From: Parietichytrium sp. I65-24A
Taxonomy: Eukaryota; Sar; Bigyra; Thraustochytrida; Thraustochytriidae
DNA length: 64,000 bases
Assembly (NCBI GenBank): GCA_012862575.1
Contig: BLSF01000017.1
Coordinates: 496,001 to 560,000, forward strand
Direction: 5' to 3'
The notes beneath the pieces are model-generated. The model was not told where the DNA came from, did not search any database, and saw only the letters and a program-made list of their open reading frames with translations. Position 1 is the stretch's first letter. Each line of letters begins with the position of its first letter. Positions 4,108 through 63,815 of the stretch are shown here, piece after piece. Made by a program: the position numbers and the translations under genes.

Positions 4108-7100
4108 ATGTTCAGGGGGTTTTCGCTTCGCGGAAGGTCTGCGTCCCCGGCGCCGTCTCCGAAAAGCAGAAAGTTGAGCACCAAGGATGCAGAAGAGCTC
4201 AAGGTTGACGAGCTTGCTCCAGCGAACCTTGGCGAAGGTGCTGAGTTCGTGGTGAATCTCAAGGTGCTCGAGGCTCGCGACCTTCGCATTGCGGACAAGA
4301 AAACAAAGTCGAGCGACCCCTTCGTCCAAGTCAAGCTACGCGGTACCAAAGTTCAAACGGGGGTCAAAGACCGGACACTCAATCCTAAGTGGAACGAGGA
4401 ATTTCACTTTGGAAACTCGGGAGGAGGGCGGAAGCAGAAGAAGGCTCTCAAAGGTGACGAAAAAATTCTGTTCCACGTACAAGACCGGGATCTTGTCTTT
4501 AATGATGACCTTGGTGCTGCAATTTTTGACCTGCAGGATTGCAAGGCTGCCGAAGGAATGAAGGTCAAGCGTTGGCTCAAGCTTATCACTTACGATGCTG
4601 CTCTGCTGCAATACAAAGAGGAAGGAACAACACAATCTCCGAAGAAAAAGAGCAAGCCTAGCACGTCGTACTTTGGAGAGCTGTTGGTTGATGTAGAGAT
4701 GTTGCTTGTCACGGACGAAACTGCTATCCCGTCTTCGCGCTCTGCAGCTAGTAGGGAGAGTAAAAGATCTTCGAAAGCGAGCACAAGTCACTCAGCTGAT
4801 GACAATGACAATGATAGTACCCCTGCAAAGTGTGTGTCTGCTAGAACTCATATCGAGAGCGGGCGTTCGTCAACAAGTGTACCTTCTGGGGCGGAAGTGC
4901 ACAACAGCTTTTGCAATACTTTAACAGTAAATGTCATGAGAGGGAAAGGGCTTGCGTCCAAAGACTATGATGGGTTCTCGGACCCGTATTGCTCAGTGAC
5001 CTTTGGGAAACAGAAGAGGAAGACGGTAACAATGCGCAATACTCTCGATCCTGAGTGGAATGCCGAGCTGAAGTTTAGCACAGTTGATAAGAATGGGAAA
5101 CCCCTGCAATCGGATTTAGTCATTAAAGTGTACGACTCTGACATGCTTTCTGATGATCTTATCGGTGAAGTCGTCATTCCATTCGAAGAACTAGTCAATC
5201 TAGAATCCGGCTTGCAATGGCGCGATCTCGTTGCCAAGCCGTCCAAGAACAAGACGGCGTCCGAAATCGGAGCACTCGAACTGTCTGTCACCTACAACCT
5301 TGAGGGAGGAGAAGAAGAAGCAGAAGGTGCTGCAGAAACAGATCATGAAAACCCGGAGGAGACTCCGAGAAAAGGAAGACTCTTTTCTTTCGGCTCACTG
5401 CCTCTCTTGTCGCGGAGAGCCAGCTCGCCGCGGCCAAGCAGTGAATTGAGCCCTCTTTCCTCCCCGCAAAGCCCGGACTCAGACAGCGCTCGCACCCACA
5501 GCTCCAGGCATAACACAGGCTCGGACACAAAAACACAATTCTCGAGCATCTCAAACCCGGCAAGTTCGCAAAACTCAATCTGCCCTCCATTCAACATCAA
5601 AATCCACAAAGCACAGGGCTTATTCAGCTCGGATTCCAACTCTTTGAGTGATCCCTACTGCATCGTTCGGATTGGGCGGGAGAAAAGAAAGACTAAAATG
5701 CGAAAAAAGACGCTCGATCCGGTATGGGACGAGGAATTGAGCTTTAAGCGCAAGAAAGGACATTATCAATGGACAGACATAGTTGAGATTGAAATCCGGG
5801 ATGGAGATCTCATCGGGTCGGATTTCCTCGGCAAAGGTTCAATTACTCTTCAAGAACTCGCGAACGCTGCGACCCCACAGCCGGTATGGCTCGACTTGAT
5901 CGGTCAAGATGGGCATCCAAAGTCAAACGTTGAGCTAGGAAGTGTACAAATAAGTATACTATTCACTGACCTCCATTTGCAACAGTCAGCCTTGGCCAGC
6001 GGGGAAGGTCAGGTATCGGCCGCGAGTCCTGGCTCAAACAACGTTGTGAAGCTGAAAATTATTCAAGCACGGAATCTCAAAGCAGGGGACCTCTTCGGTT
6101 CATGTGACCCCCTCTGTATCGTGTCTTACACCGATAGCGCTGGGGTGAGGCGAAAGCTGAAGACTAGTGTAGTGCACAAGTCTTTAAATCCGGTGTGGGG
6201 CGAGAAGGAGGTCTTCGAGCTTCATGGATTGGACCTCTTGCAGGACGTTCAAGCTCAGGCTGTTAAAGTTTTAATAAAGGTCATGGACAAGGACTTGTTG
6301 ACGAGCGACTTTATCGGCAAAATCGAATTCAGCTTAGCTGAAGCTTTAAGGCTTTCTGAACCGCAATGGCTTCCACTCGACCCGAAGGGCGAAGTGATGG
6401 TACAGGCGATTGCGCCGTTTGAGGGATACGTAGAGGCAATACCAAAGCCCGCCTCCATAAAGTCCGCTGAGACTGTTCTCGGCATATTACAAAGCCAGCT
6501 TGGTGAGCAGGTGGTTACCACGGCGCAATTGCGGGCAGCTTTCGACCTTGTGGATGGAAATCAGTCTGGAACGCTGAGTTTTGATGAGTTCGTCCAACTT
6601 TTAACGTTTATGAAACTTTCCAAGTCAGTGAGCAATGAGGAGCTAAGAGTACTGTTTGATGCACTTGACGAGGATCGGAGCGGAGAAATCTTGTTCAAGG
6701 AACTAGAGCATCTCTTAGAAGATGGCTCGGGAGAGGTTATCGTTCAGAAAAATAGCAAGAAAAGCTCGCGGTCCTTGGCTCGTCTCGCAGTGAGACAATT
6801 GGGTGAAAAGCTGATCCGCCACGTTTCGGCCTCAACGTCCAAATCAACCGGTAGCATGCCCATGTCGGAAATTGTGGAAGACTTCGTATCTGATCTCAAG
6901 CGAAACTTTGAACTCTTTGATGAGACACGGTCTAGGCGCATCGAAATTGGAGAACGCCTGAACAGGGTGCTTGTTCTCTCCAATTCAGTGCCTTTGACTG
7001 ATGAAAATGAGAAAAGAGCCCTCGCTAAAGCTTTTGGTTCTCCAATGAGGTATCTAGAATTTTGCGAATTTTTGCTCGACCTTGAACTGCCGCTACATTC

Positions 7101-10100
7101 GCGTCCCGTCGCACTTCCGTCCGAAAAAATCTCATATGGGCTCCCCGACGGCCAATCGCAGAGCAGCTCAGCAACTCTTGATGTGAAGATTCTACGAGCC
7201 GAGGGACTTCGGGCCAGTGACCGGAATGGGAAGTCGGACCCGTACTGCATCTTGCAACTGGAGAAAGAGTCCCAGAAGACCAAGGTAATTCGCAATACAC
7301 TTGATCCAGTCTGGCAGCAGGACTTTGTATTCGGGAAAAAGTCCGGATTACGGCAGAACTCGTCTCTGAAAATTACACTCAAGGACAAAGACCTCATTTT
7401 CTCTGAATACCTGGGTGAGGTTTCAATACCAATCGCGAACATCCCGCGTGATTCAGCAAAGGAAAGTTGGTATGACTTGGTATCTACGGGCAAGAAGAGC
7501 AAGGCCACCGGAAGAGTTCTTGTGGCGCTGTCGATTAATGCCAATGGCCCTGCAGATCCTGGCAGCCCTGCGTCTGCCCCGTCTCCGCTCAGTCCTCCTC
7601 TGCGTCACGTCGACGACTATGTCGACGGAATGGACTTCCGAGATCCTTCAGCTTCCGCTTCACCTTCAGCTTCTCCCGTAAGCGGGGGCAGTGCCAAGAG
7701 CACTGACGAACATTCTCACACTCATCTTCACTCCGATAGGGACCAGAACTGGCATGCCCAGCAGCTTAAAAGTGCAAGAGAAGCTGTAGCAAAGGCCATC
7801 CGCCTTGGTGGTGGTCAGATGAGTCTTCGCAGCGAGTTAGAGAGGCAAGACGTCCGTCAAAGAGGTGTCATTTCGGCCAAACGGCTGCGAATAGGTCTGG
7901 AAAATTCGGGAATACATCTCACATCCGAGCAACTTGCCGCACTGATTCCTAGGGTTGACCCAGAAGGGCTCGATCGAATCGACTATCTATTATTTTGCAA
8001 GCTTGTACGCTCCGAAATTGCGTTCTCCTCGCAGAGAAGCTCCGCAGCTTCGCTCGCGGCGACACGTAGCAGGTTGGAGAGGGTATTGAGTCACGCGGCT
8101 GCAAGGAGCATGAGCATTGGGGCACTTTTTCTTGCGTTTGACCACGCTCGGAGCGGATTAGTCTCAGATCAAGATTTCTGTAGCGTTCTGCGGGCAATGA
8201 ACGGAAATTTTGAGCCAAAAGAAATTATTCAACTCGCGCAAAGCTTGCAAGGGGGGGAACAAGGAGGTTTCGTCAATTATCGTGTTCTGGTTCACAATGT
8301 ATGCAAGGACATTAATGTGGACACCCCACTGGGTGAAAGTATCGGGATAGGATCGAGAGAGAGCAGCGAAAGCTCCCACCTCATTCGATCGCAGTCAACA
8401 ATTGATGAGGTCCAGACGAAGTTCAAATTTGTTCTTCGCCGTTTGGGCAAGCAATCGCCGGATTTGAGCCAATTTTTCGAACAGTTTGATAGAAACGGAG
8501 ACGGGAAGATATCCAGGGCAGAATTCCGTGATTTTATAGAAACGAAGGTCAACCAGGATCCTACACTTTTGCGAGACGAACTCATAACCGCAGACGAGCT
8601 TGAAATTCTTTTGCATCGATTTGACCTTCACCAAAATGGCCAGATCGACTACGTTGCTTTCCTCCAATTGATTTCCATGACTCGCGACGAGCTGGAAGAA
8701 TCCTGCGAAAGGTTCAGGAAAAAACTTGTTGCAAAGTGCAGACAACGGCAAGCTCTCCATGAGCCGTCTTTACTGAGTGAATTCAGTAAAATCGACAGAC
8801 TCGGGCGCGCCCAAGTATCTCGCATGGAATTTCGCAATGTTCTAAAGTCGATGGGGGAAGGAGCGACCCTCAATACTGAAGAGCTCCGATATTTGATGGA
8901 CAAATTCGACTGCTTCCAGACCGGCTCAATCAAATACGTGGATTTCGTTAATTACGTTCACGGCCAACAGGCCGGGGTGATTCTGCCGAATACATCCTCA
9001 CCGGACGAAGTTCAACAAACTGACATGGATCGAATCACTCGGGGCAGCGCGGAGAATATTCACAGCGCATCTTGGATGTATAGGGATGCTGAGGCGGGAG
9101 AGCAACGATTCCAGCGTCAAAGCTCGACCATGAGGTTTGTGGAGGCGTCAGAATCAGCGCAGGCAGAAAACTGTCCGAGTTCGCGCCGTGTGGACCTCTG
9201 GCACCCTAGCACGATTAACGAATGGCTTGAAAAGTTTGCCACTCCAGCTGAGCGAAGGGATTTTGACGAGCTGTACCAGTCTGTAAGCGCTTACACGGCC
9301 GAAGATCAGCGATCTTCACAGTATTCTCTTCGCGAAGCCCCGGGATCGGCTGCCGCTTTGATCGCTCGTCAACGGCCACCACAGGCTTCAAGCTCCCATG
9401 CTTTCTATTCACCAAGAGGAAGAGATCAAATTACATCTCTGCACAGAAGTGCTCGCTCCCCATCCCCACTTGATAGAGAGTGCAAGGATGTTGGTTGGGA
9501 GTGTCGACGTTGCAGACATGTGAACAGATCATTGGCTCATTTAAACGATTGCAGAAAATGTGGTTCGGCGCGCTCGGCCATCTCCCGCGTGATTGTTCGA
9601 AGCGATGGGAGTAGCTCGAGTGAATTCGAAGAAAGCTCGGATGCTGATTTCAGAGCACAGCGACGACGACGAAGACGAAGCGCAAGAGAGCGTGGGAGGT
9701 CTCAGCTCCAGCGTAAAACACACCGCTCCTCGCGCTCTAGATCGCGTCATGACTCGAGAGAAAAAGAACGTCGACACAAACCGCGAGGCAGTCGTTCCCC
9801 AATGGAGCTTCCTGCTAGCCCCAAACTTTTATTGGTCGACGATCTTCACGAGAGACGGCCGTCCAGGGAATCAAGAAAAGGTCGTAGTCGGGGGCGGAAC
9901 TCAGACTCGGAGTCTGAATCATCGGACTCCACAACGAGCTTCTCGGACTCGGAAACCTCCGTGGGGTCGCCAGGTTTCAGCGTCAGTTACTCCTCCAGCG
10001 TCTTTGCTGATGATTTCTGGGGATCGGTGAACGCGCAACGGAGGTCAAGGCTCCATGAGCAATCAAGCAGAAAGGACAGCAAGCGGCTGAAGAAAGAGAA

Positions 10101-10212
10101 GCACGGGGGGCGGAAAGGGCGGAAGAAGCACAACCGCGAGAAAGGCTCAAGAAAGAAGTCACACAAAACTTCTCGCCAGAAACGAAGAAGTCGGAGCAGA
10201 AACAGGTTTTAG
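4108..10212 (+). CDS. Multi-C2 / EF-hand protein with RanBP2-type zinc finger and RS-rich tail
   Basis: A 2034-aa single-exon protein, probably a calcium-responsive membrane-binding scaffold. Five C2 domains are visible at about residues 44-145, 270-362, 493-585, 644-748 and 1020-1112. Each carries a SDPF/SDPY/CDPL calcium-loop motif and a later paired-Asp segment such as DKDL, DSDM or DGDL. An EF-hand pair sits at about 808-871 (DGNQSGTLSFDEF, DEDRSGEILFKEL). More EF-hand-like repeats lie at about 1455-1620, the best being DRNGDGKISRAEF; others (DLHQNGQIDY, DCFQTGSIKY) are weaker. Near 1798 is a four-Cys RanBP2-type zinc finger (WECRRCRHVN...CRKCGSAR). The last 200 residues are Arg/Ser/Lys-rich. 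The start is the first ATG in frame and is followed by a Ser/Pro/Arg-rich leader. The stop lies 43 bp from that of the convergent AP-5 mu gene. C2 and EF modules suggest Ca2+/phospholipid binding; the finger and RS tail suggest RNA or nuclear-speckle contacts. The combination is not one I recognise. Confidence 0.9.
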   Translation: MFRGFSLRGRSASPAPSPKSRKLSTKDAEELKVDELAPANLGEGAEFVVNLKVLEARDLRIADKKTKSSDPFVQVKLRGTKVQTGVKDRTLNPKWNEEFHFGNSGGGRKQKKALKGDEKILFHVQDRDLVFNDDLGAAIFDLQDCKAAEGMKVKRWLKLITYDAALLQYKEEGTTQSPKKKSKPSTSYFGELLVDVEMLLVTDETAIPSSRSAASRESKRSSKASTSHSADDNDNDSTPAKCVSARTHIESGRSSTSVPSGAEVHNSFCNTLTVNVMRGKGLASKDYDGFSDPYCSVTFGKQKRKTVTMRNTLDPEWNAELKFSTVDKNGKPLQSDLVIKVYDSDMLSDDLIGEVVIPFEELVNLESGLQWRDLVAKPSKNKTASEIGALELSVTYNLEGGEEEAEGAAETDHENPEETPRKGRLFSFGSLPLLSRRASSPRPSSELSPLSSPQSPDSDSARTHSSRHNTGSDTKTQFSSISNPASSQNSICPPFNIKIHKAQGLFSSDSNSLSDPYCIVRIGREKRKTKMRKKTLDPVWDEELSFKRKKGHYQWTDIVEIEIRDGDLIGSDFLGKGSITLQELANAATPQPVWLDLIGQDGHPKSNVELGSVQISILFTDLHLQQSALASGEGQVSAASPGSNNVVKLKIIQARNLKAGDLFGSCDPLCIVSYTDSAGVRRKLKTSVVHKSLNPVWGEKEVFELHGLDLLQDVQAQAVKVLIKVMDKDLLTSDFIGKIEFSLAEALRLSEPQWLPLDPKGEVMVQAIAPFEGYVEAIPKPASIKSAETVLGILQSQLGEQVVTTAQLRAAFDLVDGNQSGTLSFDEFVQLLTFMKLSKSVSNEELRVLFDALDEDRSGEILFKELEHLLEDGSGEVIVQKNSKKSSRSLARLAVRQLGEKLIRHVSASTSKSTGSMPMSEIVEDFVSDLKRNFELFDETRSRRIEIGERLNRVLVLSNSVPLTDENEKRALAKAFGSPMRYLEFCEFLLDLELPLHSRPVALPSEKISYGLPDGQSQSSSATLDVKILRAEGLRASDRNGKSDPYCILQLEKESQKTKVIRNTLDPVWQQDFVFGKKSGLRQNSSLKITLKDKDLIFSEYLGEVSIPIANIPRDSAKESWYDLVSTGKKSKATGRVLVALSINANGPADPGSPASAPSPLSPPLRHVDDYVDGMDFRDPSASASPSASPVSGGSAKSTDEHSHTHLHSDRDQNWHAQQLKSAREAVAKAIRLGGGQMSLRSELERQDVRQRGVISAKRLRIGLENSGIHLTSEQLAALIPRVDPEGLDRIDYLLFCKLVRSEIAFSSQRSSAASLAATRSRLERVLSHAAARSMSIGALFLAFDHARSGLVSDQDFCSVLRAMNGNFEPKEIIQLAQSLQGGEQGGFVNYRVLVHNVCKDINVDTPLGESIGIGSRESSESSHLIRSQSTIDEVQTKFKFVLRRLGKQSPDLSQFFEQFDRNGDGKISRAEFRDFIETKVNQDPTLLRDELITADELEILLHRFDLHQNGQIDYVAFLQLISMTRDELEESCERFRKKLVAKCRQRQALHEPSLLSEFSKIDRLGRAQVSRMEFRNVLKSMGEGATLNTEELRYLMDKFDCFQTGSIKYVDFVNYVHGQQAGVILPNTSSPDEVQQTDMDRITRGSAENIHSASWMYRDAEAGEQRFQRQSSTMRFVEASESAQAENCPSSRRVDLWHPSTINEWLEKFATPAERRDFDELYQSVSAYTAEDQRSSQYSLREAPGSAAALIARQRPPQASSSHAFYSPRGRDQITSLHRSARSPSPLDRECKDVGWECRRCRHVNRSLAHLNDCRKCGSARSAISRVIVRSDGSSSSEFEESSDADFRAQRRRRRRSARERGRSQLQRKTHRSSRSRSRHDSREKERRHKPRGSRSPMELPASPKLLLVDDLHERRPSRESRKGRSRGRNSDSESESSDSTTSFSDSETSVGSPGFSVSYSSSVFADDFWGSVNAQRRSRLHEQSSRKDSKRLKKEKHGGRKGRKKHNREKGSRKKSHKTSRQKRRSRSRNRF

Positions 10213-57474: not shown

Positions 57475-57592
57475 TTAGCCAGTGTTGTCAGCAAGTAGGC
57501 GGAGAGCCTCCAGAAAGTGTTTCATTCTTACAACGAGCTTCTGTTTATCCCCAAGCGTCGGATCAATTGCAATAGATTCTCTCAAAGCGTTC
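56465..57592. repeat. About 560-bp direct duplication separated by a single N
   Basis: Copy 1 spans 56465-57024 and copy 2 spans 57026-57592. They are about 97% identical, with a few small indels. The undetermined base at 57025 lies exactly at the junction. Copy 1 repeats the last 39 codons of the AAA+ ATPase (56908-57024, minus strand) and its 3' flank. The layout is what two unmerged contig ends from heterozygous haplotypes would give. Confidence 0.9.
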
Positions 57593-59670
57593 ATGCCGGC
57601 CTCAGTGCATACCATATTCAAGTCAGCGCCGGTGGACCCTTCCAGCGTTTCTGCAATTTGGCGGAAATCTATCCCTTCCTCAAGAGGCATACTCGCTGTG
57701 CAATACGTAAGAATATCGAGGCGGTCCTGATAAGAGGGAAGTTCCACAACTACATCGCTGCCCAATCTTCCGGGGCGCAAGAGCGCCGAGTCGATACTGT
57801 CGTACCGATTGGTGGCGGCAAGGATCGTGACATTCTGAAGTGACCCAACGCCATCCATCTCGTTTAATAGCGCGCCAATTAGTCTGTTGCCTACCGACCC
57901 GCCAGACTCTCGCGAAGAACCAATTGCGTCAAGTTCGTCTAGGAAAAGAATGCAAGGCGCCGCTGCTTGCGCGCGCTTAAATAATTCTCGGACAAGACGC
58001 TCGCTTTCTCCAAGATACATCGAGGTGATGTCGGAAGCTTTTGCAGAAATAAAGTTTAGACTGGACTCACGCGCAACAGCGTTCGCAATCAAAGTCTTCC
58101 CGCACCCCGATGGACCGTGAAGTATGACACCTCTCTGGGCAGTGTCAGGAAATCTCATGTTCCAGCTAAGAAGTTGGGATATTCTGTTCTTAACGTGTGC
58201 GTAACCAGCAACACCCCTCCACTCGAAATCGAAGGGGTTCAGCTTCTTTCCAAGTGGCGAGGCGGAGACGTCGCGCTGTATATCAAGAAATCCAAGATCG
58301 CTTGCAGCGATGTCTTTCACCAAATGTAGGAGCCGATCCTCAAGCTCGGCCGATCCACGCAAATGGAGTTGTTGGGCTTGCTCGCAAAGCTTGGCAAGGT
58401 CGCCTCGATTGAAGCCCGCAGTGTGTTGAGCCACTTTGCCAGCAAGGGCACGACTCTGCGCTGAATCACTCTCTAGCACCAGACCGAATTCTCGTAAAAA
58501 GACGCGAAGAATTGCCTCTTTTTGAGGAACAGATGGCGTACCAAACGTGACATGCGTGGCGAACCCGCACGAACTCGTTGTTTCTGATAGCCGTCTGGGA
58601 AGTCGCTTTAGGGACCGATCTGAACAGCTGGCAATGACCAAAAGCCCGCTAAATGAGCCTCCTGCAGAGATTTGCTCCAGTGTCGAGCATACCCAATTAA
58701 TGACCCTGTGCTCACCAACCGAGAGTTTTTGCAGCGCGCCATTCGCGCCATCGTCATCGCCGACAGAAGCCACAAGTGCGTCCAGGTTGTCAAGCATGAG
58801 CACTTGAATAGCGCTTTCTGTGTGTATCTGAATGGCCCTGTTCTTGAAAGAGTCACCTCCTTCCGCCTCAAGGACTAGCCGCATGCAATCTAAGCGAGTC
58901 ACCCCTGTTGCCGGTATCGCCTTAAATTCTTCCGCCATCGTATCAAGAAACCTGGTCCTGCCGCTTCCATGTGGGCCAACTAGCAGCGCGGATTTCGGCG
59001 CTAAATTGGCTGTGCGTCCAGGCCCTCTTGCAGCCGAAATCATGTCCCGTACAAACCCCTGTTGCTCTTCTAACCCGACCAACGCCCAACGACTCTTGCC
59101 TCCGTCCCGTTCCTCCTGTTCGTACGGCGCCGACAGTAGCACAATCCGCGTATCCTCACCCAGAATGCCACTTTCCTGGTCCGGAGCTGTGCAAAAGAAC
59201 ATGTCCATGCCCACGACCGTCACGCACACTTTGGCGTTGGCACATATGTGCATGCCCCTCATTCTCCTGCGCAAGGCCATCTCCACATCCACGCAAGCCA
59301 GCATCTCCAGTGCGTCCTGTAAGTTCTCATTCTCTTCGTCGACTCTCAAGCGCAAACAGCTCAGCTCGCGGCCAGCCTCGACCTCACTTTCGTCTCCATT
59401 ACCTCCCTCTCCATATGAATCTGTGTCCTCGCCGAGCACTGTCGCCCGTGCGCCAGCTGGCGGCACGCAGCGAGCAAGGAACGGGTTCGCTACCAAGAGG
59501 CCTTCTGCAGCATTGGCGTCCGCGCAAGCGCGTACCAGCACCTTCTTCTCGCTGTCATTTTCGCCTCCAGCGACAATGTGCACCAGGAGGGTGGCCCCGG
59601 AGTGAGCCAGAGACGGGTGTACGCGGCATACGTGCGCGGGAAGGAATGCGTCTGCCTCCACTGAGAGCAT
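57475..59670 (-). CDS. PEX1-like double AAA+ ATPase
   Basis: A 731-aa protein from the first in-frame ATG (two codons after a GTG). It has a divergent N-terminal region and two AAA+ modules. D1 (about residues 215-420) is degenerate: its Walker A is GPHGSGRT, with Arg for the Lys, and its Walker B ends LMLDNLD rather than DE. D2 (about 500-700) is intact: GPSGCGKT, ILFLDELDAI, AATNRYDSIDSALLRPGR, and an SRH with Arg. An inactive D1 with an active D2 is typical of the peroxisomal PEX1/PEX6 motor. RLDCMRL and LLVIASCSDRSLKRL resemble PEX1 D1. AFG2B/SPATA5L1 is the main alternative. Human PEX1 is about 1280 aa, so this one is short. Confidence 0.68.
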   Translation of the reverse strand: MLSVEADAFLPAHVCRVHPSLAHSGATLLVHIVAGGENDSEKKVLVRACADANAAEGLLVANPFLARCVPPAGARATVLGEDTDSYGEGGNGDESEVEAGRELSCLRLRVDEENENLQDALEMLACVDVEMALRRRMRGMHICANAKVCVTVVGMDMFFCTAPDQESGILGEDTRIVLLSAPYEQEERDGGKSRWALVGLEEQQGFVRDMISAARGPGRTANLAPKSALLVGPHGSGRTRFLDTMAEEFKAIPATGVTRLDCMRLVLEAEGGDSFKNRAIQIHTESAIQVLMLDNLDALVASVGDDDGANGALQKLSVGEHRVINWVCSTLEQISAGGSFSGLLVIASCSDRSLKRLPRRLSETTSSCGFATHVTFGTPSVPQKEAILRVFLREFGLVLESDSAQSRALAGKVAQHTAGFNRGDLAKLCEQAQQLHLRGSAELEDRLLHLVKDIAASDLGFLDIQRDVSASPLGKKLNPFDFEWRGVAGYAHVKNRISQLLSWNMRFPDTAQRGVILHGPSGCGKTLIANAVARESSLNFISAKASDITSMYLGESERLVRELFKRAQAAAPCILFLDELDAIGSSRESGGSVGNRLIGALLNEMDGVGSLQNVTILAATNRYDSIDSALLRPGRLGSDVVVELPSYQDRLDILTYCTASMPLEEGIDFRQIAETLEGSTGADLNMVCTEAGMNALRESIAIDPTLGDKQKLVVRMKHFLEALRLLADNTG

Positions 59671-60225
59671 TCTCACGGTTCGAGGACCTTCGGTAGGTCG
59701 CTCTGTGCCTCCGTGTGCGTGTGGTCCGAGAGCTTAAGTTTTGGAAGTTTTGGAAGTTTTGGAAGGCTTGGAAGAGAAGGGAAGCGAAGTTGACTTTGAT
59801 GTCTCTTTGATGTCTCTTTGATGTCTCTTTGATGTCTTTGATGAGCGAGGAGAAATGGGATCGGCGGATTGTTGTTTGATTGGAAAGACTGCCAAGGACC
59901 GGAGAGAGTGTGGCGTGCTGCGAGCGACGATTGATGCGTCGATGTATGTGTGAATCGATGTATTGATGTATTGATGTATTGATGTATTGATGTGACGTGT
60001 GTAGTTTCGATGGTCGAAAGAGAAGGACTTGCCGAGAGTATTGCCAGGCACGCGGATGCTAGCGTTGGTACTGTATTTCGCTGGCTTTCGGGAATTAGTT
60101 TGAGGTTGTGGGATGTCAAAACTTTGAAGCGCTGCCGGGTTTGTGCAGCTGGCGAGCTAGAGAAATATTGGGGCTTGGAGCTACGATGCAAGTTCAGGTT
60201 TTGGATGCGTTAAATTCAGATTCAT
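59671..60225. other. Intergenic region with short tandem repeats
   Basis: 555 bp between the AAA+ start and the first 7TM gene's stop. Three repeat blocks: (TTTTGGAAG)n at about 59737-59765, (TTGATGTCTCT)n at about 59794-59840, and (GATGTATT)n at about 59956-59993. No gene is seen. Confidence 0.6.
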
Positions 60226-61662
60226 TTAATGTTCAGGGGCATGGGACTGCATCTCGAACGTTGTCCGTTCGCGAGGCGACGCCCACTCAAGCTCGGTGTG
60301 TTCTCTTCCGTCCGGGTTCTTGCCACGGCGCAGGACGGAAACGGATGGCATGCGTATGCAGTGTGTGAGAGCCGAGCAGAGCTTGCTTGGTTTCGGGTCT
60401 TGTGTCGTTTCTGGAGATGATTGGTTGGGGTCTCGCGGTTTGTGGGTCAAGTACAGGGTGACCACAAGAGAGCCGAGCACAATGGCGGTCATTTGCAAGT
60501 GATGGAAACCCTTGATTCTGGGAAAAGTGCCCGGCACGCTGGTCTCTTTCCATCCAAAGAGAGTGTCGACGGCCGAAATACCAAAGGTGGCGACAAGAAA
60601 CAGCGCCAGACACACGGAAATCGCAATTGCCGTGTTTCGAACTTTGTACATAACGTTGTGAAATAAGTGCCTCTTTTCTGCAGAGCCCTGTTTCACCCGA
60701 AGTGTGTTGAATCTGGAAAACCTGGACATGACCGAACTTGTGGAGCGATGCTTTTCCGGGTTCTCCGCGTCACCGACCGAGGAAACCACGCTCACCGTAG
60801 TCATGTCAGCAGTATTCTGATTTGCCTCAACGGATGCTCTCAAAATGCCAGTGAGCTTCGCGGCGCCAGTGACGTAGGTAATGAGAACAAAAATAATGAG
60901 AGGGGTAAGGACAAAGCCCATGATGCTGGACCCAATCAGCTTTTCAAAAACAACGCCACTGGCAGCGGCAACAACGCCAAGGGCCTCGAACCAATACACT
61001 AGGTGTTTCATTTTGTTGAGCCGAGATGTGGAAAATCGATGGGTTGCATTTGCGATTTCTAGCCACGTCACGGACACGTTCAGCAAAGCTAAAGCCCCAG
61101 TAGCGATGCTGAGCGGCGCGAAGAACCAGAGAATTGAGTTATACCTTCCCTTGTACTGGTCAGGGAGGTGGCCAAGAGATTCCCCGCTGGTTGTAGCGGT
61201 TGAGAGTATGAGTATGAGCGCCCAGATTGAAGCCGACATGGCTGCAGCGGTCGTGAGAAACAATGTGATATTCATGCTGGACAGTTTGAACAACGTCTTT
61301 TGCTTCCAAAACTTGAAGTTAATTCGGATCAGCCACACACACGTGAACAACCCCAGTAACATGGTCAAGCCGTTCCAAACAATAGTGACTAGGTTTCCAA
61401 AAAAGTAACCATTCAAAAGTTAGCTCTCGGCCCTGCCAGTCTGCAAAAAAGTCACTCAGCGGCACTTACTTTTTGAGCTTCGGCTCAGCGTCGCGCACTC
61501 GGGAAACCCTTCCCACCCATAAAACGTATTGCAGTAGCACCCCAGCAGCACACCGTCTGTACTATTTGGCGCGGGCACGTAACTCTCCATGTACCATGAC
61601 ACATTCGTGTAGCACAGCATGTTCTGGGGGCATGCTTGATCGTCCGAGCACCACTCCGCCAT
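60226..61662 (-). CDS. EGF-like ectodomain, seven-TM receptor-like protein (paralogue A)
   Basis: Two exons, 61470-61662 then 60226-61388, with an 81-nt intron (GTAAGT...CTAG), give 451 aa. The junction was set by alignment to paralogue B, 1 kb away. Residues 1-56 hold six Cys in EGF order (Cys5, 11, 17, 42, 44, 56), ending with CYCNTFYGWEGFPEC, the classic CxC...GW.G..C form. Seven hydrophobic segments follow. A Ser-rich loop of about 65 residues separates TM5 and TM6, and a cytoplasmic tail of about 70 residues follows TM7. Shared with B: DQYKGRYN, SIMGFVLTP, KVRNTAIAISVCLALFL, HHLQMTAIVL. No cleavable signal peptide is seen, so an N-out orientation driven by TM1 is inferred. An exon further 5' cannot be excluded. 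A GPCR-like receptor is a structural inference; I recognise no known class. Confidence 0.8.
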
Positions 61663-62108
61663 CTTTCCTGCCACCCGCCACGTCCGAGCGTCGTCTCGCA
61701 CTCACCGTGGCCGTTCGCTGATAGCTCACTTTGGTGATTGCCGATACGTCCAGACACACCCTCCGCTTCACTTGGTGCAGTCGCACAAGTGTCCATAATA
61801 GCCTCCGCAGTATTCAGCAGTAGCGCAAAGTGTGAGGATGAACTTGAAGGTGGCGGCGTATTTGCACTAACACTTTCAAAGTTTACATGCACGAGGAAAG
61901 TACTCCGTACTCCGAGTCTGTACATACCACTTTGTTTCACAGTCATCTCAGTCAGCTATACTTCTGACTGAGAGGTTTGTTTGTTTATACGATGCGTTGA
62001 CGCACTCCAAAATCAAACGTCTCCAGTTATTTGCACATTTCACTTGAGCATGTTCATTCATTCAACTTCGACGTTCAATCAAAATGAATGAATGAATGAA
62101 TGAATGAG

Positions 62109-62139
<31 letters not shown>

Positions 62140-62648
62140 TCACACTGTCAATAAAAACATGCGACCACAAACAAATCATTATATTTTCCCCTATCAAACA
62201 ATTATATCAAGCCATCATAGACTTACATAAGCAACGCTGTAACAGTGCGAGATGCCGAAACGGGTACACACCTCGCGTGTTAGCGTAAACGTTAGCTGTC
62301 TTACCGCTGGCTTTCGAGTTGAGGTGCATTTTAAAACGTCTAGCAGTGAGAATAGGCATGTCGGTAGGAACCTGGGACTGCGAGTTGGTGGGTGAATGAA
62401 TGCAGGTGGACTGGGTTGGATTTTGTTTTGTTTTGGTTGAGGCTGAAAATAACGACTGCGAATGGGAGAAAAGAACATCCGTTCAAAAGTTGAAAGAGAA
62501 TGGGACTTGAAAAAGTCATAAAAGTAGCTTGGGGGTCAGGAGTGAAACAGAAACATAAAGACGAAAGTTGGAGATGAAAGGAGTCTGGTGTTGAAAAAGA
62601 GGACGGTCCACGGTCGGCAATGGGTGGGTTTTGTTTTTGGCCGCGGCG
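61663..62648. other. Intergenic region with (AATG)n/(ATCA)n repeats
   Basis: About 1 kb between the tandem paralogues. An AATG tetramer run (about 62083-62107) passes directly into an ATCA run (about 62108-62139). A degenerate ACTCCGTACTCCGAGT lies at about 61900. No gene is seen, though a short open frame abuts the start of paralogue A. Confidence 0.55.
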
Positions 62649-63815
62649 TCAGTTGGAGAAGTTGTACATGGCAATTACAAAGCAAGCGAGGTTCACTGCA
62701 GTTATGTGCAAGTGGTGACACACCTTGTAAAAGGTGACCGGAGACCCGGGTGGCACAGCTTCCTTCCAGCCTGCATCATACGAGATGTCGACGATAGAGA
62801 TCCCGAGATTACTGAATAGAAACAAAGCCATGACGAAACTCGTTGCCAAGGCTGTGTTTCGGACTTTGGTAAGGACCTGTCGGAAAATATTTGCGGGCAT
62901 GCGAGGTTTGTGGGCCATATTTCGACGGCTGAGGATCGATTTGGCGGTGAAAAGCGTTGACCGGCGTCCTTTTGATCCCGGCTCAGGCGTGGAAAGGCCG
63001 GACTTTTCGTTTCGCGACTCAGAGTTCTCGTTCGAGATTGAAGCATTACTTAGCGTTCGGAGCTTTTCGCTTGTGCTCAAAGAGCCTTCAAGCAGGATAC
63101 TCAGCCTTCTGGCGCCGTACAAGTAGCTGGCAATAACAGCCGCAACCACGGGCGCCAGGGTGAAACCCATCACCGACCTCCCTTCGACCTTCTCCACGAC
63201 AACGCCTACAGCCCCAGACACGATAAAGGCAGCTTCCCAGAGGTAGATCAATTTCTTAGTGCGTGCCAGCTTGCTCTCTTGGTTTACAGTGAGCCTGCCT
63301 GTGTTGTCGGCAATTTCCACCCATAGCAGGCTGATGTGAAGAAGCGAAATCCACGCAAGCGCAATGGCCACTGGCGCAAACACTATGCTGGTGACATTGA
63401 AGCGGCCCTTATACTGGTCTTTGAAGTCCATGGTGCTAAGCATATCGCCGCGCACGATGAGGGCGCTGAGACAGACTGCAAGCGCCCACATCGCCCCTGC
63501 GACGGCAGCGATGAATGCTAAAGTAACCGTTGCGGAGTGCGCGTTGATCACGAAGAGCTTTTTCCTTTTAAACAGTCGCCACATGCACACCATGAGCAAA
63601 CATGCAGCAGCCAAGCCCATCAAGCACGAGCAAGAGTTCCACGCAATCGACATCATGGTCGACAGCGTCATCTTATCACAATTGGCTCCAGTCCACCCGT
63701 AGAACGAGTTGCACATGCAGCCCGACCCCGTGCCGCTCCGATTGAACCACAGCGTTTCTGCATAGCACAGCTCATTCGCGCCGCACTCTGCGTTGTCCAC
63801 GCACAGCTCCTCCAT
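62649..63815 (-). CDS. EGF-like ectodomain, seven-TM receptor-like protein (paralogue B)
   Basis: A 388-aa single-exon paralogue of the neighbouring gene, same strand. Cys5, 11, 17, 33, 35 and 46 form an EGF-like module ending CMCNSFYGWTGANC, with an NRSG glycosylation site between. TM segments lie at about 52-80, 90-115, 130-160, 177-197, 205-228, 318-340 and 362-384. The TM5-TM6 loop is about 90 residues, Ser/Arg-rich. The protein ends four residues after TM7, so the C-tail of paralogue A is absent. It also lacks A's intron, which in A falls between the EGF module and TM1. Identity to A over the TM core is roughly 35-40% by eye. There is no cleavable signal peptide at this ATG. Function is unknown; ligand sensing by the EGF module is inferred. 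Confidence 0.82.
   Translation of the reverse strand: MEELCVDNAECGANELCYAETLWFNRSGTGSGCMCNSFYGWTGANCDKMTLSTMMSIAWNSCSCLMGLAAACLLMVCMWRLFKRKKLFVINAHSATVTLAFIAAVAGAMWALAVCLSALIVRGDMLSTMDFKDQYKGRFNVTSIVFAPVAIALAWISLLHISLLWVEIADNTGRLTVNQESKLARTKKLIYLWEAAFIVSGAVGVVVEKVEGRSVMGFTLAPVVAAVIASYLYGARRLSILLEGSLSTSEKLRTLSNASISNENSESRNEKSGLSTPEPGSKGRRSTLFTAKSILSRRNMAHKPRMPANIFRQVLTKVRNTALATSFVMALFLFSNLGISIVDISYDAGWKEAVPPGSPVTFYKVCHHLHITAVNLACFVIAMYNFSN

Follow-up and report, generated by a model that had tools for sequence, protein, structure and literature searches.

EGF-capped, probably GPCR-like seven-transmembrane proteins form a family outside Pfam in the thraustochytrid Parietichytrium sp. I65-24A

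Two adjacent genes on the minus strand of a 64,000-nucleotide stretch of Parietichytrium sp. I65-24A DNA (bases 496001–560000 of contig 17, hereafter the window) each encode a six-cysteine module resembling epidermal growth factor (EGF), followed by seven hydrophobic segments. Judged from their sequences, both genes are part of a divergent receptor-like family that is missing from Pfam. It is probable, at roughly 70%, that this family consists of G protein-coupled receptor (GPCR)-like proteins with an EGF cap, lying outside Pfam, that sense external signals via G proteins. The genome, 42.5 Mb in 172 contigs, is recognized as eukaryotic by its introns and gene content, and the GC content of the window is ~51%.

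Gene 1 (C17a; 62649–63815, minus strand) is a single intronless open reading frame (ORF) of 388 residues. The cysteines of its EGF-like module (residues 5–46; 63678–63803) stand at residues 5, 11, 17, 33, 35 and 46, in columns that are invariant in 12/12 members of the family, and seven hydropathy peaks follow them, which together with the helices of a low-confidence structure model mark out a seven-helix core at residues 51–388 (62652–63665). Gene 2 (C17b; 61662–60226, minus strand) is split into an exon 1 with the ATG and the EGF-like module (61470–61662; module at residues 5–56 by the family alignment, 61495–61650) and an exon 2 with the seven-helix core and the C-terminal tail (60226–61388), separated by a predicted phase-1 intron of 81 bases (61389–61469, GTAAGT...CTAG). 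The putative splice keeps the frame, and the joined protein of 451 residues, which has the same six cysteines and seven hydropathy peaks, aligns with gene 1 across the exon border; the ORF of 60226–61416 in the original prediction equals exon 2 plus 28 bases of intron. The two genes are 36–37% identical and, as that prediction had it, both contain the motifs DQYKGR, MGF.L.P, KVRNTA and HHL..TA, differ in their C-tails (gene 1 ends 5 residues past the call of transmembrane segment (TM) 7, gene 2 carries 71 residues) and have an intron only in gene 2. An in-frame TGA lies 2 codons before the ATG in gene 1 and 14 codons before it in gene 2, with no ATG between. Moreover, no hydrophobic stretch ahead of the EGF part was seen by eye in the open frames of the family, in agreement with the proposed lack of a signal peptide, these being DNA-based models in which a further 5′ exon is possible.

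Searches of the organism's own genome with five queries (gene 1, the exon-2 frame of gene 2, C29b, C18 and C59), whose locus counts are lower bounds, revealed at least 12 core loci, namely C17a, C17b, C24, C46a, C46b, C29a and C29b (near each other), C18, C51, C21 and C21b (~5 kb apart) and C59, which bears out the suspected expansion of the family, with members in neighbouring pairs. The run from EGF-like module to TM1 lies in a single intronless frame in 9/12 members (C17a, C46a, C46b, C29a, C29b, C18, C51, C21b and C59). An intron is predicted in the other three: in gene 2, in C24 (93 bases, phase 1, GTAAGT donor, one codon from the gene 2 intron in the alignment) and in C21 (79 bases, within the EGF module). 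Because nine of the genes have no intron at this join, the EGF and TM parts belong together and are not an artefact of one gene model; with the ORF and splice models and the hydropathy profiles, this substantiates the claimed fusion in both window genes.

Pairwise identity among the 12 members is 15–55% (median 22%). Invariant in their alignment are M1, the six cysteines, T96, W165 (a Trp in TM3), P222 (a Pro in TM5) and L242, and kept in 11/12 are D8, W23, G40, W110, G234 and G349. When seven members were set against the other five with hhalign, Prob 100 was obtained (E 2.9e-53, 356 columns), compared with at most 0.1 in five column shuffles; together with the retention of six cysteines in 12 paralogues, this makes the similarity more than chance. 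The divergence of the paralogues in loops and tails suggests that they may have differing ligands or partners.

A tree of 13 proteins (the 12 core members and the remote relative C105) joined C17a, C17b and C24 at 100/99, their internal order being unresolved, and C29a with C29b at 100/99. The partner of C21b was C59 (100/99) rather than the nearby C21, and C105 and C46b formed long branches of unsure placement. Tandem copying therefore explains the C29 pair and perhaps the C17 pair, and the C21 neighbours are either older or were brought together by other routes. C105 (E 6.4e-5 with the C18 query) looks like a remote member, as does C78 (E 0.56 with the C29b query), in which an EGF-like N-terminus is followed by TM segments across an apparent intron. 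The C78 locus (contig 78, 48290–49931, minus strand) is very divergent, with a canonical-looking EGF end (YCVCDGSFGLQGPRCEE) ahead of the TM segments. On the strength of this relative, capped seven-TM proteins may make up a broader superfamily. Two further weak matches were left out of the family count: C88 (E 0.04), and C145 (E 0.24), which has no EGF-7TM protein among its frames of at least 100 codons.

TM segments were called by a Kyte-Doolittle scan, and the topology is accordingly a prediction. Seven segments were called in 11/12 core members and in C105, and C24 has six calls because its TM2 is below threshold; this check had been set beforehand, and no contrary count emerged for the window genes. 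The N-tails before the first TM call, 47–68 residues in the 12 core models, consist almost wholly of the EGF-like module and are acidic (0–3 lysine/arginine (K/R) vs 7–10 aspartate/glutamate (D/E)), and at least one N-x-S/T sequon lies within the first 62 residues in 13/13 proteins (12 core and C105). The first, second and third inner loops are basic, the first outer loop is of mixed charge, the TM4-TM5 loop has 2–6 residues between calls, and the C-tail has more K/R than D/E in 9/12. The acidic N-tails, basic inner loops and N-tail sequons together predict an N-out/C-in orientation. The TM5-TM6 loop, originally described as long and Ser-rich, has 91 residues with 15 Ser and 17 K/R in gene 1 (62847–63119) and 82 residues with 10 Ser and 12 K/R in gene 2 (60634–60879), in a range of 41–100 residues and 5–17 K/R across the family.

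The label ‘EGF’ derives from the cysteine pattern and should be taken as such. Six cysteines occur in EGF order with C1-x5-C2 and C4-x-C5 spacing in 12/12 members, and [YFW]-G-W-x-G precedes C6 in 8/12. In Pfam, the best values, both under the cut-off, were ADGRF3_N (E 0.027) and, for an EGF model, EGF_Teneurin (E 1.3). Nothing better than E 0.027 was found for 10 core members, or better than E 0.096 for C21b, C59, C105 and two pieces of C78, so that the family fits no GPCR class of Pfam, in line with the initial view that no known class applies. A sequence search of the PDB with a 10-member profile gave 18 matches up to E 10, of which the best was Spitz/Lin-3 (E 0.16), followed mostly by cystine-knot inhibitors and also TatA chains, with no GPCR among them. 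Scans of viral contigs and of prokaryote genomes with one peptide pattern, taken from the EGF module region, gave 107 and 67 matches, respectively, and no relative, which has no bearing on the spread among eukaryotes.

A structure model of gene 1, of low confidence (pLDDT, the predicted local distance difference test, 52 overall and below 50 over the EGF part), places helices at residues 51–83, 92–120, 131–171, 177–211, 216–263, 308–347 and 358–387, with an extra short helix at 287–300 in the TM5-TM6 loop. In a structure search with this model, 50/50 matches listed were GPCRs, and class A receptors whose N-tail is short came out best. For gene 2 the model was of too low quality to confirm this, and a search with it gave nothing usable. 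A GPCR-like bundle was thus seen in one of two low-confidence models, and the receptor function that had been proposed may apply. Of the fold matches to a transporter or enzyme that would have spoken against it, none was among those listed for gene 1. An unlikely alternative is a seven-TM protein other than a G-protein receptor, for instance an EGF-capped transporter, scramblase or regulator, with Ost-alpha/TMEM184 as one possible type; transporters and ceramidases were not among the gene 1 matches listed, from which their exclusion does not follow.

Class A GPCRs with a short N-tail and no signal peptide resemble the family in a short N-out tail, a TM1 that would here act as signal anchor, and a predicted seven-helix bundle. 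DRY and NPxxY are motifs of class A. In contrast, the family has no 7tm_1 Pfam match and no class A motifs in the conserved columns of the 12-member alignment. The EGF-TM7 adhesion GPCRs (ADGRE1-5/CD97), which share an outside EGF, seven TM helices and a receptor topology, possess a signal peptide and several EGF repeats with a long stalk containing GAIN/GPS, whereas here one EGF-like module adjoins TM1 with no space for GAIN. In the 12 core models, built from DNA, no GAIN/GPS precedes TM1, because the N-tails are too short and lack a Pfam match, and 7tm_2 gave no Pfam match up to E 1 in the family members scanned; the original prediction had likewise excluded GPS/GAIN.

TMEM8/PGAP6, of the CREST superfamily, also has an EGF-like domain and then seven TM helices, and it is because of this common order that the family might be regarded as a TMEM8/PGAP6 relative, i.e., a CREST-type metal-dependent membrane hydrolase. 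CREST members are described as conserving three His, one Asp and one Ser (PMC9436119). By contrast, His does not reach 9/12 in any alignment column of the 12 members past residue 51 (Ser was not tabulated), and no Pfam match was found. CREST/TMEM8 was rejected on this ground, and the hydrolase reading is very improbable.

Kinship was also sought among receptors of the genome itself. PF00003 (7tm_3, class C) has 82 matches, all but one above the cut-off, some of which are pieces of one gene. Class C GPCR genes lie in several clusters, e.g., on contigs 71, 19 and 85. In a genome so rich in class C receptors, some of them with frames as short as 359–411 residues, the family could be pictured as a strongly diverged class C branch that lost its large ligand-binding domain. 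However, hhalign against 14/82 of the class C matches gave Prob of at most 3.8, out of register, compared with 99.5 between two class C subgroups and 100 between two parts of the family as positive controls, by which class C kinship was rejected and such a descent becomes highly improbable. A cAMP-receptor type was rejected as well, since neither of the two Dicty_CAR matches in the genome sits at a family locus.

PF00503 (G-alpha) gave 24 matches, 17 above the cut-off, which grouped by place amount to ~13 genes, 11 single and two or three on contig 45; the match on contig 43 contains two stops. The contig 45 genes are close together and apparently intron-split. For a genome of 42.5 Mb, ~13 G-alpha genes seem a large number. 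The large numbers of G-alpha and class C genes are in line with the enrichment of G proteins and three GPCR domains in thraustochytrids that a 2018 comparison describes (PMC6050695).

On these grounds, a mechanism can be proposed for the EGF-capped family as GPCR-like receptors. TM1 would serve as signal anchor and put the EGF module outside, where it may form a cap close over the helix bundle (gene 1 has its last cysteine at residue 46, and the first helix of its model begins at 51). The cap might take part in recognizing a ligand, which may be soluble (a peptide or sugar) or a protein of a surface or matrix; alternatively, the cap might be a tethered lid. A shape change of the bundle would then activate one of the many G-alpha proteins via the inner face and the third inner loop, as the fold and the G-alpha set would allow, and phosphorylation of Ser in that loop may switch the receptor off. 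Alternatively, since EGF modules often mediate adhesion and gene 1 is almost without a C-tail, the proteins may bind other surfaces or matrix, their seven-helix part being a former receptor that has lost G-protein coupling. This is quite unlikely, as core TM residues and basic inner loops are kept at a median identity of 22%, a degree of conservation scarcely required of a mere anchor.

Orphan seven-TM families are known from other protists. GPRch2, RSF and further orphan GPCR clusters of PMC12716839, compared here by description only, are like the present family in this respect, and GPRch2 also in its unusually large inner loop 3. In Table 1 of that source, GPRch1-3 and RSF carry no extra domain, and the entry EGF is confined to the Adhesion and Glutamate families; by description, the EGF cap thus sets the present family apart from GPRch1-3 and RSF. 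Among the titles, abstract openings and passages searched in the literature (including PMC10445921 and PMC12223298), an EGF-7TM architecture of this kind is not described.

The surroundings of the gene pair contain further features. Between the two genes, at 61771–61833 (minus strand), a short frame encodes by eye a four-cysteine peptide like the tail of an EGF module, which may be chance or the remnant of a third copy, and by eye the gene 2 region is flanked, at 62080–62140 and 59800–60000, by short tandem repeats whose units have four bases or more. An AAA ATPase with two AAA stretches (57475–59676, minus strand) adjoins the pair, and farther off, a single-frame protein of 2034 residues (4108–10212, plus strand) has five C2 stretches and several EF-hands.

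Surveys of protist GPCRs begin largely from existing 7TM profiles, and a family unseen by Pfam is therefore easily missed. Beyond the receptor reading itself, it is tentatively possible that the family is a separate class of eukaryotic GPCRs, with one EGF-like module next to TM1, without stalk, GAIN or signal peptide, covering a class A-like bundle as its lid or as a tethered ligand, expanded as a sensory repertoire beside the class C receptors and the large G-alpha set. If they are receptors, these proteins would join a single EGF module to a seven-helix bundle in a very simple way, which would help to ask how ectodomains gained control of GPCRs, and would give access to the sensory biology of a eukaryote rich in G proteins.
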